DNA from: Oscillibacter sp.
GTDB lineage: Bacteria > Bacillota > Clostridia > Oscillospirales > Oscillospiraceae
Direction: 5' to 3'
Assembly (NCBI GenBank): GCA_017446225.1
Contig: JAFSRH010000031.1
Span: forward strand, 1-37,271
DNA length: 37,271 bases
In this document: positions 4,107 to 13,855 of the stretch, piece after piece
How positions within the stretch are numbered: position 1 is the stretch's first letter
How the letters are laid out: each line of letters opens with the position of its first letter
Program-made: the position numbers and the translations under genes
Notes under the pieces: model-generated
The model's input: the letters and a program-made list of their open reading frames with translations, nothing else
Databases searched by the model: none
Told to the model about the DNA's origin: nothing

Positions 4107-5816
4107 TCATTCGTCCACGAAAACTTGCAGGGTTACGGTCAGTTCCCGGCTTGGGACGGTCAGGTAATTGCCGTTGTAGTACATGGCGCTGGACGCGCCG
4201 CCGTCCAGATTGAACGCGTCCACGCACCCCGCGGCAAGCGAAAGTTCGCGCATTTGCTGAATGGTGGCCCCCGCCGGGACGGAAATCAGTAACAGGTTTC
4301 CGTCCGCGTTGACGCCGATTGCCGTACGGGAAGAGGACGCGGTCGTAAAGCGGGCTTCGGTGAAACCGGCCTCCAAATCGGTGACCAGTTCGCCGTCCTG
4401 CACCAGACGGGGCGCGCCGGAAACGATTTCGCGTACGCCGTCCAGCACGAACCCTTCTTCGTCCGCGACCCGGAGATAGTATTCCATGGAAATCGGGGAA
4501 CCCTTCTGCGGGATGTGGAAGTAAGGCTCGGAGGAGTAGCCGCCGCCCATGTAGACCACGTACCCCTGAGGCGGGATGTTGATGGACGCGCCCGCGCTGA
4601 TGGAATAGAATTCCGTCACAACGCCTTGATCCGCGGTCAAGGCCCAGCCGCCGTTGGTCATGACCACCTGTTCCCCGTAGGCGGGGGTATAGAGGACGGA
4701 GGCGTTGTCGTCCTGTTCGGGGGTGTTGATTTCGTACACGGACCATTCGTTGCTTCCGGAAGTCAGGCGCGTAAACACGGCCGGACGTCCGACATAAATG
4801 GCGCCGTCCTCCGTGAAGCCCATGGACGACAGGCCGGAGTTGCCGTAGAGAAAGACGCCGTCCGACATGACATGACCAATCGGAGATTGAAACTTGCTGT
4901 AGGAGTTGAAGAAATTGCCGTTGACAACCGCCGCGGCCCCGCCGGAGTTTTGCACGATTTTCGTAAAGGACGCCGTGTGTCCGAGCTGATTGTCCACAAG
5001 GGCCGTTTTCACGCGTACTTTCGGGTTACGGGTGTTTACCGTCAGAACGTGGGCGGTTACGAGGCCTTCTGAGGTGTGGACGCTCTTCTTTTCATAGTCA
5101 ATGGCGGAATCGCTCCCGGCGGGCGGGTCCCAAGGCATGACGGGCAGGGACGGCTCCCACGTACCGGGCAGAACGCCGGCGGCCCGGCCCTCTTCGGCGG
5201 TAAAGACGCCTTTTTCTGACAGGACCTGTGCCAGCGTGGTTTCGCCGCCCTTGACCGGACAGGTCAGGGCGTGGTAACTCAAGTCCACCATACCGCCGCG
5301 GGTGAGGCCGTTGGCCTCCATGGAAGCGGCTTCGGCGTCCGTCAGAATCCCCAGCGAGACGGCAAAGGGTACGATGTTGTCCCATGTATAATCGCCCGCC
5401 GCCTCACTGTAGCCCATGGCGCGGAGCAGAAAGGCGAGGTAGGCGTTGGCGGACAACGGGCTTCCGGGCGTAAACGTGGAATCGGTCGTTCCATTGGTTA
5501 CGCCCCGGCGGTAGGCGTAAGAAACGTAGGCTTCCCCCTGTCCTGAGACGTCGGTAAAGGGGGAGTCGACCGGGGCGGAAAGGGCCGCTTCCTCTTCCCC
5601 CAAGAAACGGATCATCATAATGAGGCCTTGCAAACGGGTGGGGGTGCGTTCAAGGCTGTAAATCGGGGAACCGTCCTCTTTTACCCCGGTGCCGCGGAAG
5701 AGGCGCAGGGCATAGAGTTTGTCGGCGTACGTAGTGGAATTCGCGGCCAGCGCGCAGGTCAGGCCGCAGAGGAGACATAACGACAACGCCGTGAAAATTC
5801 GGAACAGCTTTTTCAA
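4107..5816 (-). CDS. Secreted SLH-domain phosphodiester glycosidase-like protein
   Basis: The start is TTG 5816, not the ATG at 5843: GAAAGGTGG sits 8 nt upstream of the TTG, and translation from there gives a clean signal peptide (MKKLFRIF, hydrophobic core, A-L-A-A-N cleavage region). About 569 residues. Residues about 25-215 hold roughly three S-layer homology motifs (for example F-T-D-V followed by G-V-T-N-G-T). These would bind pyruvylated secondary wall polymer. Residues about 245-565 form a NAGPA-type (phosphodiester glycosidase) domain with V-N-G-N-F-F-N, S-R-T-A-I-G-V and F-N-L-D-G-G-A-S-S motifs. It is likely displayed on the wall and cleaves a phosphodiester-linked sugar. It has its own promoter (5895-5923). 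The neighbouring surface glycosyltransferases suggest action on wall polymers (inference). Confidence 0.85.
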   Translation of the reverse strand: MKKLFRIFTALSLCLLCGLTCALAANSTTYADKLYALRLFRGTGVKEDGSPIYSLERTPTRLQGLIMMIRFLGEEEAALSAPVDSPFTDVSGQGEAYVSYAYRRGVTNGTTDSTFTPGSPLSANAYLAFLLRAMGYSEAAGDYTWDNIVPFAVSLGILTDAEAASMEANGLTRGGMVDLSYHALTCPVKGGETTLAQVLSEKGVFTAEEGRAAGVLPGTWEPSLPVMPWDPPAGSDSAIDYEKKSVHTSEGLVTAHVLTVNTRNPKVRVKTALVDNQLGHTASFTKIVQNSGGAAAVVNGNFFNSYSKFQSPIGHVMSDGVFLYGNSGLSSMGFTEDGAIYVGRPAVFTRLTSGSNEWSVYEINTPEQDDNASVLYTPAYGEQVVMTNGGWALTADQGVVTEFYSISAGASINIPPQGYVVYMGGGYSSEPYFHIPQKGSPISMEYYLRVADEEGFVLDGVREIVSGAPRLVQDGELVTDLEAGFTEARFTTASSSRTAIGVNADGNLLLISVPAGATIQQMRELSLAAGCVDAFNLDGGASSAMYYNGNYLTVPSRELTVTLQVFVDE

Positions 5817-5894
5817 TGGGCATACCACCTTTCGGAAAGTCATGTCAGCGTCCGCGGAAGCGGAGCGGGAGTAGCCTGTACGTTCGGCGTGGCT

Positions 5895-5993: not shown

Positions 5994-8612
5994 TCAGCCA
6001 TCCGGCGGGTTTTTCTGCTTTGCGGCGGCTTCCATGGCGGCGCGTACAGCCCCCGTGGGCGCGGGACGATTGTTTTTCGCAATCAATTCGGCAATCCGGA
6101 TTTTGGCCGCTTCCAGCTCTTCCCGGAACATGGACGCCGAAACCCTCAACGCCCCGTGGCCCAGAATAATCAACTGTTCGGGGCCGTCCGAGGTGGCCAC
6201 CCGTACGCGGTGTTCCTTCGCGATTTCGTACGTGGCCCGTTCGATGTAACTGTCGGCGGTTTCGGCCTCTTTGGTGTAGACGATGTGAATATTGTGGTAA
6301 CGCTCATGGGAGCCGGGGTTTCCGCGCACCTTATAGGCGTCAAAGACGACAATGACCACGCACTCCCGCATGGACTGATAGTCACAGAGCAGGTCACAGA
6401 GGATTTTCCGGGCGGCGTCCAGATGTTCCAAGGCCACGGCCTTGAGGTCGTCCCACGCGAAAATGAGGTTGTAGCCGTCCGCGAGCAGGTATTCGGGTCC
6501 GGACGGCGGACGCGGAACCCGGACGCGTTCGGACGGTTCGCGGCGGGCTTCCCGGATTTGCGCCTCCCGGCGTACTTTGACAGGTCCGTATGTACGTTCA
6601 AAGATGGCTTGCAGTTCCTTGTCCTCTACGGTCCCGGACCCGGCGGCGGACGCGGAACGCGCGGGCGGCGGGGAAGCGTCCGGACGCGCGGCGCGTATAT
6701 GCGCCATGTCCGGGACGAGGTTCCAAGGCACCGCGTATCCGGCCCCGTGCGCGCAGAACACGGACCCGGAAGGGTTGTCGATGTCATGTTCCGGCTCGTA
6801 GCCGATACGCGCCACGACTTCCGCCTGATTGGCGCAGGGCCGGAACGCGGACGCCTGACAGGAAAATTGCCCGAGGCCGTGCGTGTACGCGGCGACTTCC
6901 TTGCCGTAGTCCTTCAGGGCCGCGGCGGGCGCGGAGCCGGTCACAACGGCGCTTTCCGCGAACGTTTCTGGGGGATTACAGTCCCCGCCCAAGCGGCGTA
7001 TATCGTTCAGGGCGCGTCCGGTCTGGGCGGACGGGACTTCCAGACGGAAGTCGTACCAAGGCTCCAGCAGTACGTTTTCCGCCGACATGAGGCCCTGACG
7101 GACCGCGCGGTAGACCGCTTCCCGAAAATCGCCGCCTTCGGTATGTTTTTCGTGGGCGCGTCCGGCCAGCAGGGTAAAGCGGATGTCGGTCACCGGCGAA
7201 CCGGTCAGGACGCCGACATGTTCGCGTTCGGCCAGATGGGTCAGGATGAGGCGTTGCCAGTTACGCGACAGCGCGTCCTCCGGGCAGGCCGAGGCGTAAC
7301 GGACGCCGCTTCCGGGCGGGAGCGGTTCCAATAAAAGATGTACTTCCGCGTAGTGCCGGAGCGGCTCAAAGTGCCCGATACCCTCCACGGGCGCGGCAAT
7401 GGTTTCGCGGTAGACAATCGCGCCGGGTCCGAAGTCCACGGAGAGCTTGAAGCGGTCCATTAGAACCCGTTTGAGAACTTCCGCCTGAATTTCCCCCATG
7501 ATACGGACCTGTAAAAGCCGCGCCGTACTGTCCCAGACGACCCGAAGGGCGGGGTCCTCCTCTTCCAACTGCCGCAGGGCCGAGAGAACGTTATGCGCCT
7601 CCGTGCCGGAAGGAATCAGGACCTGATACCGAAAGACCGGTTCCAGCAGGAAACCGGTCCGGCCGCGTTCAAAGCCGAGTCCGTCCCCGGCGCGGGTACG
7701 CGTCAGGCCCGTGACGGCGCAAATGCCCCCGGCCGGCATTTCCTCCACGGTCCGGTACTTCACGCCCGTGTAGACACGAATCTGGTCTACTTTTTCCTCC
7801 CGGACTTCTTCCGAGGGGGGCGTAAGCCGGTATTTTGCGCGGAGCGTCCCGCCCGTGACTTTCAGCCACGTCAGACGCGCCCCGCGTTCATCGCGGCTGA
7901 TTTTAAAGACCCGCGCGCCGAAGTCGGCCGGGTACGCCGGTTCGGGCGCAAGCCGGGAGAGCGTGTCCAAAAACGCGTCAACGCCCGTTTCGCGCAGGGC
8001 GGAGCCAAAGCGGACGGGAAACAGTTTCCGGGCCGCAATCAGGGCGCGGTACTCCGCGTCCGTGACGTTTCCGCGCTCAAGGTAACGTTCCAAGAGGGCC
8101 TCGTCACACAGCGCGGCCTCCTCCGCGATGGTATCCGCGCTGACGCTGAAATCCGTACAGCCGCCGTCCAGTTTTTCCTTCAACTGCCGCATGAGTTCGC
8201 CGGGGGCAATTCCGGGCAGGTCCGTCTTGTTGACGAACACAAAGACCGGCACCTGAAAGCGTTCCAGCAGACGCCACAGCGTCAGGGTATGCGCCTGTAC
8301 GCCGTCCGTGGCGCTGATGACGAGTACCGCGCAGTCAAGGACACGGAGCGCGCGTTCCGCCTCTGAGGAAAAGTCGTTATGTCCGGGGGTGTCAAGCAGG
8401 AACGCCTCCCTGTCGGCGAGGGGAAAGACCGTGGATTTGGCGTAAATGGTAATTCCGCGTTCCCGTTCGATGGGGTCGGTGTCAAAGTAGGCGTTGCCGT
8501 GGTCCACGCGTCCGGGCTTGCGCAGGACGCCGCTTTTGTGCAGAATCGCTTCCGAGAGCGTGGTTTTACCGGCGTCCACGTGGGCCAGAATTCCGAGTAC
8601 AAGTTGTTTCAT
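5994..8612 (-). CDS. TetM/EF-G-like GTPase fused to YacP/Rae1-type NYN nuclease
   Basis: About 872 residues from ATG 8612, which has GGAGAA at 7 nt (a TTG 15 nt upstream is less likely). Residues 1-640 are a ribosome-binding GTPase of the TetM/EF-G family: A-H-V-D-A-G-K-T-T (G1), R-G-I-T-I (G2), D-T-P-G-H-N-D-F (G3), N-K-T-D (G4), then domains II-V. A charged linker (about 655-700) leads to a C-terminal domain (about 705-860) matching YacP: L-L-A-D-G-Y-N-L-I, V-V-F-D-A-Y, E-T-A-D-S-Y-I-E and V-A-T-S-D-G-P-E-Q. YacP is Rae1 in Bacillus, a ribosome-associated endonuclease that cuts mRNA in the A site; TetM-type GTPases also act at the A site. I infer a ribosome-rescue or mRNA-quality factor. 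Tetracycline resistance is possible but not shown. Confidence 0.88.
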   Translation of the reverse strand: MKQLVLGILAHVDAGKTTLSEAILHKSGVLRKPGRVDHGNAYFDTDPIERERGITIYAKSTVFPLADREAFLLDTPGHNDFSSEAERALRVLDCAVLVISATDGVQAHTLTLWRLLERFQVPVFVFVNKTDLPGIAPGELMRQLKEKLDGGCTDFSVSADTIAEEAALCDEALLERYLERGNVTDAEYRALIAARKLFPVRFGSALRETGVDAFLDTLSRLAPEPAYPADFGARVFKISRDERGARLTWLKVTGGTLRAKYRLTPPSEEVREEKVDQIRVYTGVKYRTVEEMPAGGICAVTGLTRTRAGDGLGFERGRTGFLLEPVFRYQVLIPSGTEAHNVLSALRQLEEEDPALRVVWDSTARLLQVRIMGEIQAEVLKRVLMDRFKLSVDFGPGAIVYRETIAAPVEGIGHFEPLRHYAEVHLLLEPLPPGSGVRYASACPEDALSRNWQRLILTHLAEREHVGVLTGSPVTDIRFTLLAGRAHEKHTEGGDFREAVYRAVRQGLMSAENVLLEPWYDFRLEVPSAQTGRALNDIRRLGGDCNPPETFAESAVVTGSAPAAALKDYGKEVAAYTHGLGQFSCQASAFRPCANQAEVVARIGYEPEHDIDNPSGSVFCAHGAGYAVPWNLVPDMAHIRAARPDASPPPARSASAAGSGTVEDKELQAIFERTYGPVKVRREAQIREARREPSERVRVPRPPSGPEYLLADGYNLIFAWDDLKAVALEHLDAARKILCDLLCDYQSMRECVVIVVFDAYKVRGNPGSHERYHNIHIVYTKEAETADSYIERATYEIAKEHRVRVATSDGPEQLIILGHGALRVSASMFREELEAAKIRIAELIAKNNRPAPTGAVRAAMEAAAKQKNPPDG

Positions 8613-8627
8613 GGCGGCATTCTCCAA

Positions 8628-9383: not shown

Positions 9384-11858
9384 TTATGTGCCGCGCACGG
9401 CTTCGCACATCGGACGGAAGTCGTTAGCAAGAACAAATACCCTTGCGTAGTCAAAACGCTGTTCGTCAAACCGGAACTGGTAATTTACTTCGCCTGTAAC
9501 TTGCGCGCAACGGACGGCAATCATTTTGCCGCTGTCGCTGAACACCCCGCAGAATACTGACGCGTTGCCGTCAGCGCCCTTGACAGTCGCCTTTACTGCG
9601 TTACCGGAGACCAACACGCCGGAAACGGTCACGCCGGACTGGAAGTCGACCCTGACGGAATCCAACGGGGCGTTAAACTCCCCTTTAGCGGCTTTGAGCT
9701 GTTCCCACTGCGCCGGGGTTCCGCCATAGTGTACCGTGGCGAGTTTGGAACAGGCGTAGAACGCGGCGTACCCGATTTCGGCAACATTGCCCCCCATGGT
9801 AATTTCCGTCAGCGCGGCGCATTCGCGGAACGTGTAGTCGCGAATCGCGGTCACGCCATTCGGAATCGTAATGCGTTTCAGGGAGGAGCATTTATAAAAC
9901 GCGCACTTTCCAATAATGGCGGCGTTCTCCGACATGGTGACATCCGAAAGAGAGGCGCAACCGTAAAACGCGTAATCCCCAATGCCCGCGATGCTGTCCG
10001 AAAGCGTGATTTCTGTCAAGGACACACATTCATAAAAAGTCTTGTCTTGGATGACGCTTACCCCGCTTGGAATTACAATGCTTTCAAGGCATGAACAGCC
10101 GGAAAATGCCTGTATTCCGATACTGATAATAGTATCCGGCATGGTAACTGCTTCAAGACCGGCACATTTGCAGAATGCGTAATCCGAAATCGTGGTCAGT
10201 TTCCCCGGCAAAGAAACGCTTTTGAGGGAATGGCAGTCGTAAAACGCCGCGTATCCAATGTTGATGACGCTGTCGGGGAGTGTGACGCCGGACAAAGAGC
10301 CGCATTTGTAAAACGCGTAATCCGAAAGGATGGAGACGCCTTCGGGAATCGTGATGGACTGTAGCGCGGCGTCTCCGTAAAACGCCTGCTTGCCAATACT
10401 GGTTACGCTCTTTGGAATCTTGACGCTTGACAGGTATCCGCACTCCTGAAAGGCATAGTCTGCAATCGTTGTCACTCCTTCGGGCATATCAACGGCGGTC
10501 AAAGAGGACTGGTAAAACGCAACGTACCCAACGCGTTTCACACTGGCGGGAATGTTTACGGCAGACGCGGAACAACCCTGAAAGGCGTAATTCCCGATAC
10601 TTGTCACGCCGCTTTCAATCCAGACTGACCCGATACGCCCCTTGTACTCCTCCCACGGCGCGGGAGAATCCGCCGTATAGTTCGCCATGTCCCCGGAACC
10701 GCTGATGACCAGCGCGCCGAGGCTGTCCAGCGCGTAAGCGACATTATCGCCCTTCGCGCCGCAAGAGCCGGAAGCGATAATATTTTCTTCGGGAAGCGCA
10801 TAAGGCGCGGTGGACAGCGTCAGCAGAGACGCGCTTTTGTCGTACATATTCAGGTAGTCGATGTCCGTCAAAACATAGGTGTCCGATGGCTTGTCGGGGT
10901 TGTTTCTCTGTATCGTGTAGCCTGTTTGCGGGGTGTTATGTTCTTCCAGCGCGTGTGCCATGAAATACGCGCTGTAATTGCCGTTTTTGGTTCCGTTGCT
11001 GTCGCACCATGTCACGTCCGTCAGGTAATTTCTCCCGCCAAGGGTGACGTGGTTCCACATATGCGCCCCGGAAGCGGAAGTCTTGCCCGACACCAGATAG
11101 GAAGCAAATCCGGGGTCGCGGAAAGTCGATAAATCGCAGAGGTATTTCAAAGCTTTGGAATAGCCCTCACAGGCAATGTTCGTATCGGGATTTCCGTCAA
11201 AGGCGTTGATGAGTTCTCCGGCGGAACTGTTTTCGTTGTCGTAGGAAACCATTTCACAAATGGCGTCCTTGTAGGCTTCCAGCTTCTCATAATCCTTTTT
11301 TACCGTGTTTGCGTTCACAATGCCGCGGGCGGTTTCCCGCACAGTTGCAAGCAACTCCGCAAGGTCGTTTCTTACCTGATAGTCGCTGACTTTATAGACG
11401 GGGGAGACCGGGAAGCGCACAATCATCTCAACAACCTTGCCGGAAAGCACCACTTCATTACCGCTCACCGGCGTATGGTAGAAGTCATGCCAATACAAAT
11501 CATAAGGACAGTCCGCTTTGAGGCACATATGAACTTTCTTGAGTTTCTCCGGGATTTCTTCCTTGACGAGCGAATAATCGCCCAGTTCGCTGATTTTCAG
11601 CTTGATTTCCGTACTCTGGCGCTCTCCCGCCGCGACTTCTTGGACGAACGCCTTTAACTTCGCGTAAAGCGCGGCCTCAAAGCCGGTGAGCTCATCGCCA
11701 ACGCCGCCCATCAGCGACACGTCCGGCAAAACTCCTGCTTCCCGTTCCAGATAGCACATCAGCCGGGTATCGGTGTCCAAATCAACGGCCGCCGCCGTCA
11801 GAGACAGCGCAAGCGCGAACATGACAAACAGGAGTGGACATTTCCAACAGTATTTCAA
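9384..11858 (-). CDS. Secreted transglutaminase-like protein with BspA-type leucine-rich repeats
   Basis: 824 residues. The TTG start at 11858 follows AAGAAGGTGAT. A signal peptide covers residues 1-24. A transglutaminase-like cysteine-peptidase domain lies at about 165-310, with a visible triad: C230 (I-A-C-E-G-Y-S), H266 (G-A-H-M-W-N) and D281 (L-T-D-V-T-W). About thirteen 23-residue BspA-like repeats follow (about 405-735), each with an A-F-x-x-C core and an I-P-x-x-V turn. The last 80 residues form a separate domain ending V-F-V-L-A-N-D-F-R-P-M-C-E-A-V, similar to the end of the LRR protein at 34549. Such proteins are exported and bind or modify host or bacterial surface molecules; the target is unknown. 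Confidence 0.85.
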   Translation of the reverse strand: MKYCWKCPLLFVMFALALSLTAAAVDLDTDTRLMCYLEREAGVLPDVSLMGGVGDELTGFEAALYAKLKAFVQEVAAGERQSTEIKLKISELGDYSLVKEEIPEKLKKVHMCLKADCPYDLYWHDFYHTPVSGNEVVLSGKVVEMIVRFPVSPVYKVSDYQVRNDLAELLATVRETARGIVNANTVKKDYEKLEAYKDAICEMVSYDNENSSAGELINAFDGNPDTNIACEGYSKALKYLCDLSTFRDPGFASYLVSGKTSASGAHMWNHVTLGGRNYLTDVTWCDSNGTKNGNYSAYFMAHALEEHNTPQTGYTIQRNNPDKPSDTYVLTDIDYLNMYDKSASLLTLSTAPYALPEENIIASGSCGAKGDNVAYALDSLGALVISGSGDMANYTADSPAPWEEYKGRIGSVWIESGVTSIGNYAFQGCSASAVNIPASVKRVGYVAFYQSSLTAVDMPEGVTTIADYAFQECGYLSSVKIPKSVTSIGKQAFYGDAALQSITIPEGVSILSDYAFYKCGSLSGVTLPDSVINIGYAAFYDCHSLKSVSLPGKLTTISDYAFCKCAGLEAVTMPDTIISIGIQAFSGCSCLESIVIPSGVSVIQDKTFYECVSLTEITLSDSIAGIGDYAFYGCASLSDVTMSENAAIIGKCAFYKCSSLKRITIPNGVTAIRDYTFRECAALTEITMGGNVAEIGYAAFYACSKLATVHYGGTPAQWEQLKAAKGEFNAPLDSVRVDFQSGVTVSGVLVSGNAVKATVKGADGNASVFCGVFSDSGKMIAVRCAQVTGEVNYQFRFDEQRFDYARVFVLANDFRPMCEAVRGT

Positions 11859-12931: not shown

Positions 12932-13855
12932 GTGGAATTTACTTACATTGACCTGTTTGCTGGTATCGGCGGATTTCATCAAGCCGCTGATTCGTTAGGC
13001 GGAAAATGCCTGTTCGCCAGCGAGATTGATTCCGAAGCCAAAAAAGCGTATGCGGCCAATTATCGCATGACGCCGCAGGGAGACATTACGAAAATCAACG
13101 CTAAAGACATTCCGGAACATGATGTCCTGTTGGCGGGATTTCCCTGTCAGCCGTTCAGCATTATCGGAAATAGACTGGGCTTTGACGATATTCGCGGAAC
13201 GCTGTTCTTTGAAATCGCCCGAATTTTGCAAGCGAAAAGACCTTCCCTATTCGTTCTGGAAAATGTCAAGCAGTTAAAGGGACATGACCGCGGAAAAACG
13301 TTGGAAAAAATTCTCATGAAATTGAATTCGCTGGGGTATAAAGTCTCTTGGAAGATTCTCAACGCGTTGGATTTCGGATTGCCTCAAAAGCGGGAACGCA
13401 TTATCATTGTGGGGTTCCTTGATAACCGCGTTGAGTTCGCGTTTCCGGAAGGAGAAGGCCCCGGCAGACTGGAAGACGTGCTGGAGAACGATGCCGATGT
13501 GGCACCGAGATTTTTCGCAAGCGAACGCATTCAGAAAAAACGCCTTGAAAGCCACGTGAGCCGGTATTACCCCGCTATCTGGCACGAAAACAAGAGCGGC
13601 AACATTTCCAGTTATCCGTATTCCTGCGCCCTGCGGGCGGGGGCTTCCTATAATTATCTGCTTGTCAATGGCGTGAGGCGTTTGACGCCCCGCGAGATGC
13701 TTCGGCTTCAGGGCTTCCCGGATTCCTTCCAAATCGTATGCAATGACAGTCAGACGCGCAAACAGGCCGGAAACGCGGTTCCGGTAAACGTTATCCGCGC
13801 CGTTTTAAAGGAGGCTTTAGATGCGAAGGCCAAAATTGAGAGACAACCGGAATAA
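12932..13855 (+). CDS. DNA (cytosine-5) methyltransferase
   Basis: 307 residues, starting at GTG 12932 with AAGGAGG upstream. All key C5-methyltransferase motifs are present in order: I (D-L-F-A-G-I-G-G-F, residue 7), IV (G-F-P-C-Q-P-F-S, catalytic C72), VI (E110-N-V), VIII (Q152-K-R-E-R), IX (R-R-L-T-P-R-E-M-L-R-L-Q-G-F-P) and X (Q-A-G-N-A-V-P-V-N-V). It methylates C5 of cytosine in a specific site, protecting it from the partner nuclease. The recognition sequence cannot be read from the protein. It is the first gene of a three-gene island with an endonuclease candidate and Vsr, and its base composition is AT-richer than the neighbours, consistent with horizontal acquisition. Confidence 0.95.
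   Translation: MEFTYIDLFAGIGGFHQAADSLGGKCLFASEIDSEAKKAYAANYRMTPQGDITKINAKDIPEHDVLLAGFPCQPFSIIGNRLGFDDIRGTLFFEIARILQAKRPSLFVLENVKQLKGHDRGKTLEKILMKLNSLGYKVSWKILNALDFGLPQKRERIIIVGFLDNRVEFAFPEGEGPGRLEDVLENDADVAPRFFASERIQKKRLESHVSRYYPAIWHENKSGNISSYPYSCALRAGASYNYLLVNGVRRLTPREMLRLQGFPDSFQIVCNDSQTRKQAGNAVPVNVIRAVLKEALDAKAKIERQPE

Follow-up and report, generated by a model that had tools for sequence, protein, structure and literature searches.

A translational GTPase joined to a Rae1/YacP-type nuclease domain in Oscillibacter and other Clostridia

The 37,271-nucleotide stretch of Oscillibacter sp. DNA analysed here (contig JAFSRH010000031.1 of assembly GCA_017446225.1; the window) carries on its minus strand a gene (5994..8612) for an 872-aa protein in which five EF-G/Tet-type domains are followed, in a single frame, by a YacP/Rae1-type NYN domain. 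A sequence-only reading of the same DNA had claimed this fusion, and its coordinates for the gene, with the ATG at 8612 and the stop at 5994, proved exact. According to the cited passages, GTPases of the TetM type move into the A site when a drug has stalled the ribosome (PMC8161019, PMC7456112), Rae1 is an A-site mRNA endonuclease (PMC6613710, PMC11780869), and access of Rae1 may rise on stalled ribosomes (PMC6613710). The joining of a GTPase related to TetM to a domain of Rae1 type suggests GTPase-guided mRNA cutting on stalled ribosomes, and we give about even chances to the reading in which the GTPase would engage ribosomes that have stalled with the A site open, where the tethered domain, the sole one of Rae1/YacP type found in the genome assembly, would cut the mRNA. 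If this is true, a broad set of Clostridia has remade mRNA surveillance of the Rae1 type into an enzyme guided by a GTPase, in which the joined GTPase should set when the nuclease cuts, and the question becomes how a Rae1-type nuclease chooses its ribosomes.

The architecture as such has been printed before. Clostridiales Tet proteins with a YacP-like NYN domain, from ten species, are the subject of one passage of Atkinson 2015 (PMC4342817), in which a resistance role is suggested for them without a test. A literature search by title and start of the abstract returned no other paper on a GTPase–Rae1 fusion. The protein thus belongs to a kind already known, and what is new here is the distribution, the ancestry and the evidence from the tip of domain IV. 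The earlier interpretation was right about the GTPase–Rae1/YacP fusion and in its doubt about the tetracycline label, although the GTPase is a relative of TetM rather than TetM itself; the rescue or translation control by A-site cleavage that it proposed is an inference. Its statement that no functional description is known holds insofar as we found no functional test, but the architecture itself stands in the cited passage of 2015.

Domain architecture and conservation of the two halves

The minus-strand frame (8627..5994, 877 codons) is opened by a TTG at 8627, but the likely start of the gene is the ATG at 8612, because a GGAG (8625-8622) lies 9 nt 5' of it and the database entry of the fused protein (P0002) is 872 aa long. 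The domain search that the sequence-only reading had proposed was carried out with Pfam on the protein in its 877-aa numbering, and all six domains scored above their gathering scores: GTP_EFTU (residues 10-228, 164.8 bits; 7944..8600), EF-G_D2, i.e., domain II (236-317; 7677..7922), EFG_III (329-400; 7428..7643), EFG_IV (403-516; 7080..7421), EFG_C, i.e., domain V (519-601; 6825..7073), and NYN_YacP (714-855; 6063..6488), the last with 154.6 bits against a cut-off of 24.6, all on the minus strand. The GTPase motifs G1 to G4, described as intact from the letters alone, are all found (AHVDAGKTTL, RGITI, DTPGH with its histidine, and NKTD). The body of the protein matches EF-G structures in Foldseek (best E 3.9e-53) and, by Pfam and Foldseek together, has the five-domain EF-G-like translational GTPase architecture of the Tet class.

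Two further segments, also on the minus strand, lie between domain V and the nuclease. The first (6702..6824) is a conserved module with the consensus GYxPCHN..SVFCAHGAGFxVxWD, which is common to unfused sister GTPases and which the aligned Tet(M/W/Q) and EF-G sequences lack; a metal site in this module is doubtful since its Cys and His residues (PC-H-N ... F-C-x-H-G), present in most members, are absent from some. The second is a linker (6495..6701), 66-115 aa long among 30 proteins and predicted to be flexible. An AlphaFold2 model of the fused protein built from 42 aligned sequences (mean pLDDT 84, pTM 0.66) gives the linker one short helix and mostly low confidence and does not fix its position; pLDDT falls below 50 at residues 645-663, 675-700, 814-816 and 850-853 (872-aa numbering), mostly within the linker.

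The NYN half aligns to the structures of B. subtilis YacP (5mq8/5mq9, E 3e-25), with DGYN, VFDA, TAD and ATSD, the signatures that had been picked out by eye, in register with them. The fused proteins were compared in an alignment of 127 sequences, made up of 20 of the 120 listed homologues and of the named loci with complete frames of at least 800 aa. Residues D717, N720, D763, D792 and D814 of the NYN half are invariant in it (127/127), the four aspartates being those that we take to be the catalytic acidic residues of a Rae1/YacP-type domain. The two results that the sequence-only reading had said would count against it, a domain that does not score as YacP/NYN and the absence of its acidic residues, were thus not obtained. 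The two Glu of TKEAETAD vary more (kept in 114 and 108 of 127). In the GTPase half, the G1 Lys and the DTPGH His are each kept in 126 of the 127 proteins (the exceptions are one gap and one Tyr), and the NKxD asparagine in 119, with Thr in the other 8. Among six close pairs, dN/dS was 0.03-0.12 for the GTPase half and, in five of them, 0.009-0.14 for the NYN half, synonymous saturation making the sixth not computable; both halves are under purifying selection.

Distribution and ancestry of the fusion

The best 120 of 7995 scored homologues in a protein search all have PF05991 together with the GTPase domains. The host genome (2.18 Mb in 78 contigs, 96% complete) contains a single PF05991 match, the fused gene, and no match over the TetM/W/O/S model cut-off, i.e., neither the separate yacP nor the normal TetM that might have hinted at a mis-assembly. 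The proposed survey of how often the fusion and a separate yacP occur was run on 197 genomes of the order, 60 of which have YacP, once each. The frame is at least 833 aa long in 57 of them and cut by a contig end, with both halves still in one frame, in two more (G150 and G193); in the last one (G107), YacP lies 54 nt from the end of its contig. Hence, 59 of the 60 YacP-bearing genomes carry the fusion, and none is shown to have a free YacP. The GTPase is found without any YacP in 10 of the 69 GTPase-bearing genomes of this sample, and must therefore have a job of its own; judging by these sequences, it can work alone, without the nuclease.

In a sample of 398 genomes of the phylum, YacP was found in 208 (in the part of the matches listed) and this GTPase in 30 (E below 1e-50; the next match is at 3.6e-39), with frames of 857-937 aa in 23 and of 651-674 aa in 7. 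Each of the 23 long-frame genomes has exactly one YacP match among the matches listed, and four of the seven with the unfused GTPase have a free YacP. We considered the co-occurrence of unfused GTPase and free YacP as a clue to coupling and rejected it: the figures are 4/7 in the phylum sample and 0/10 in the order sample, and there is no argument for coupling in them because 4/7 is about the overall YacP rate (208/398, among the matches listed) and the 10 of 69 order genomes have no YacP at all.

Of 80 named loci kept, 74 are fused, 70 by motif pattern and four (L179, L197, L208, L210) with longer frames read by eye; three are cut by contig ends (L166, L170, L198), two have shorter frames (L183, L189) and one is unfused (L229). 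The top fused relatives with names belong to Flavonifractor, Pseudoflavonifractor, Dysosmobacter and Oscillibacter, and further ones of the fused type to Blautia, Hungatella and Butyrivibrio; Caproicibacter is another carrier. Fused-type proteins (55% and 50% identity) are also present in two unannotated faecal records filed as 'Bacteriophage sp.' (MT835563.1 and MT835514.1), which are either bacterial scaffolds deposited under a phage name or copies that were transduced. The unfused sister GTPases (L138-L143, L268-L278, P0122-P0241), of ~630-675 aa and often named TetM-type in databases, come from Paenibacillus, Brevibacillus, Cohnella and some members of the window's order, one genome of which (G106) has two different copies (C78:47845-48558 and C63:4840-5559; L271, L274). 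We know of no functional study of these proteins.

A tree built from 69 sequences of the GTPase half (593 columns, LG+F+G4, IQ-TREE with iterations limited to 300) separates 54 fused sequences and one unfused Bifidobacterium sequence from the rest with UFBoot 100 and, with the same support, sets the family apart from Tet(M/W/Q) and EF-G. The term 'TetM/EF-G-like GTPase' of the sequence-only reading is accordingly right as to the translation-factor type, but the family forms a clade separate from TetM and is also found without the nuclease. In a second, FastTree tree of 80 taxa, enlarged by 11 unfused sequences of the window's order, the fused sequences and the Bifidobacterium one group with SH 0.995, and 20 unfused sequences form their sister group with SH 0.87, with L144 outside it. 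The support of 0.10 at the fused ancestor in the first FastTree tree after re-rooting was discarded as a moved label because the same clade, taken as a split, has UFBoot 100 and SH 0.995. For the NYN half, a tree of 63 sequences splits 38 fused from 25 free ones, fetched from among the best-scoring free YacPs, with UFBoot 100. One well-supported clade per half points to a single fusion event. The Bifidobacterium polysaccharolyticum copy (L229:2529-4550, 673 aa) ends after the module, with no NYN seen downstream of it, and is drawn inside the fused clade, a weak placement with support of 30-55 in IQ-TREE; probably, this copy was acquired from Clostridia and shortened, and the NYN domain was lost.

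The fusion may, of course, do no more than fix the expression or stoichiometry of two proteins that act apart. Both halves do exist alone elsewhere, the linker is long and of low confidence, and the Bifidobacterium copy, which falls in or beside the fused clade, lacks the NYN domain. However, all but one of the 80 named loci are fused (74) or else cut or shortened (5), and the distances of the two halves correlate among 30 proteins (Spearman 0.57, with 0 of 2000 permutations as high), and we consider two uncoupled jobs unlikely.

Another possibility is that the GTPase serves ribosome assembly or acts as a subunit factor, with the NYN domain trimming stable RNA in rRNA or tRNA maturation. A stable-RNA role was once proposed for NYN domains, as cited in a passage of PMC4342817, and the free gene has a suggestive location: in B. 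subtilis, yacO (the rlmB homologue) and rae1 are adjacent and co-transcribed, as described in PMC6613710, and in seven of the eight genomes with rlmB located (the exception is G505) free yacP directly follows rlmB, an rRNA methyltransferase gene. The fused genomes examined no longer show this link, and none of them has yacP directly after rlmB. Where yacP is at rlmB, the next gene encodes 213-225 aa and is SigH in the one genome scanned (G334); in 12 fused genomes outside the window's order, a gene for 195-251 aa directly follows rlmB, the best model being of SigH type in 9 of the 9 scanned (seven over the SigH cut-off, G588 and G417 below it), and in seven genomes of the window's order, the host among them, the frame after rlmB is long and is not yacP. 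Since the rlmB-adjacent yacP is missing from the fused genomes examined, the fusion most simply either took the place of the free gene or took it in. Rae1, the relative that has been characterised, is moreover an endonuclease of mRNA in the A site according to the same source (PMC6613710), and a maturation role appears rather improbable.

The surroundings of the fused gene give little guidance. A conserved operon was sought as a functional clue across 31 loci, where the largest cluster of neighbours occurs in 7, and none was found; a defence system was likewise rejected, with no PADLOC match up to E 1. The window contains no Rfam match and so no RNA leader beside the gene; in five relatives, Rfam matches are limited to three tRNAs, a T-box that lies ~1.7 kb upstream in L082 and, immediately downstream in L083, a molybdenum riboswitch. 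The neighbours in the window are a protein with S-layer and phosphodiester glycosidase domains (4110-5843), an 824-aa BspA-type leucine-rich-repeat protein (9387-11858) and, on the plus strand, a C-5 cytosine DNA methylase gene (12932-13852) followed by a 243-aa frame without Pfam match.

The tetracycline-resistance label

The third rival, which follows the suggestion of Atkinson 2015, is a tetracycline protection protein with an RNase, in which tetracycline would be driven off by the GTPase and the RNase would contribute further to resistance. Besides that printed suggestion, its basis is that the best NCBIfam match among those listed is the general Tet model, that two of the best 120 fused homologues (P0054 and P0076) are named as TetM/TetW/TetO/TetS family, and that the DFR after the domain IV tip is common to fused proteins and Tet. 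Yet the general model gives 397.6 bits against a cut-off of 775, the specific models listed score lower still, and the protein is below the cut-off of every Tet model among those listed (25 of 33 families); identity to Tet(M) is ~28%. The tip itself (EKHTEGGDFR; 7122..7151, minus strand) has, in the alignment, Lys494 in the place of TetM Pro509, the residue described in PMC7456112 as overlapping tetracycline: among fused proteins, 125 of 127 have Lys here, whereas all 19 unfused ones have Lys or Glu and the three aligned Tets Pro. As the motif that replaces Pro509 is itself conserved, with Thr496 kept in 127 of 127 fused proteins, the tip probably serves a purpose other than tetracycline displacement. 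Only 2 of 1370 matching plasmid records cover at least 80%, one of them a 518-kb circular Monoglobus record, and no Rfam leader adjoins the gene in the window.

This rival thus seems to us quite unlikely, and plain tetracycline resistance, doubted already in the sequence-only reading, was dropped as the main reading in view of the Tet scores below cut-off, the Lys at the tip and the few plasmid records. Because of the scores and the tip Lys, 'tetracycline resistance' is probably the wrong label for the fused protein; if so, false Tet labels can be removed from databases, where some fused and unfused copies are named TetM/TetW/TetO/TetS despite lacking the tip residue that contacts the drug. 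That an assembly artefact joined two genes in this 78-contig draft is practically out of the question, being already refuted by the recurrence of the same fusion in the best 120 homologues and 59 of 60 YacP-bearing order genomes, and in named isolates, MAGs and one circular record.

Possible mode of action and relation to known systems

In the preferred reading, GTPase-guided cutting on stalled ribosomes, the GTPase would bind at the EF-G/TetM site with domain IV in the decoding centre, where the KHTEGG tip would probe the decoding site rather than expel tetracycline. Domain IV and Rae1 are expected in the same A site and could not occupy it at once, and the steps would therefore be sequential or take place on neighbouring ribosomes, either of which the linker length of 66-115 aa allows. 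In the first case, domain IV would withdraw after GTP hydrolysis and make room for the NYN domain, held on a tether of ~70 residues; alternatively, the NYN domain would act on the neighbouring ribosome. The cut mRNA would then be passed on to an enzyme of RNase J type, and tmRNA would receive the stranded ribosome; the host genome encodes both tmRNA and a protein of the RNase J family. The sequences show the fusion itself, its distribution, the retained GTPase and NYN residues, purifying selection on both halves, a single fused clade for each and the missing yacP after rlmB in the fused genomes examined; ribosome binding, cleavage and the coupling of the two are inferred. Besides the crowding of the A site, this reading has to contend with the facts that Bacillus Rae1 works as a free protein, that the same GTPase occurs without any YacP in the 10 order genomes mentioned above, and that the linker is unplaced by the model and the neighbourhood not conserved. 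Loss of Rae1 suppresses an efp mutant, as reported in a passage of PMC6613710, and a known substrate of Rae1 is S1025, named in PMC11780869.

A more specific version of GTPase-guided cutting, held tentatively and with somewhat less than even confidence, is a bacterial 'enter and cut' factor, whose GTPase would sample stalled ribosomes with an empty A site and hand the site over to the tethered nuclease. It is conceivable, if a little doubtful, that one polypeptide in this way both recognises the stall and destroys the message. In eukaryotes, two proteins share the corresponding task, a rescue GTPase and a no-go-decay endonuclease.

Several known systems can be set beside the fused protein. The unfused sister GTPases have the same HTxGGDFR-type tip and SVFCxxG module, but end after the module, without an NYN domain. 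Proteins of the TetM/TetO type share the five-domain EF-G-like body; the fused protein differs from them in the replaced Pro509, the extra module after domain V, the nuclease domain and scores far below the Tet cut-offs. With the Tet-NYN proteins, as described in the passage of Atkinson 2015, it shares the domain order, a Tet-like GTPase and a YacP-like NYN domain in one protein, and the kind of organism, a clostridial genome, and is a member of that architecture, the account of which predates the characterisation of Rae1. B. subtilis Rae1/YacP has the same NYN_YacP domain with aligned signature residues; however, Rae1 stands alone as a protein of <200 aa whose gene adjoins yacO/rlmB, whereas here the Rae1-type domain is absent beside rlmB and forms the C-terminal fifth of a GTPase.
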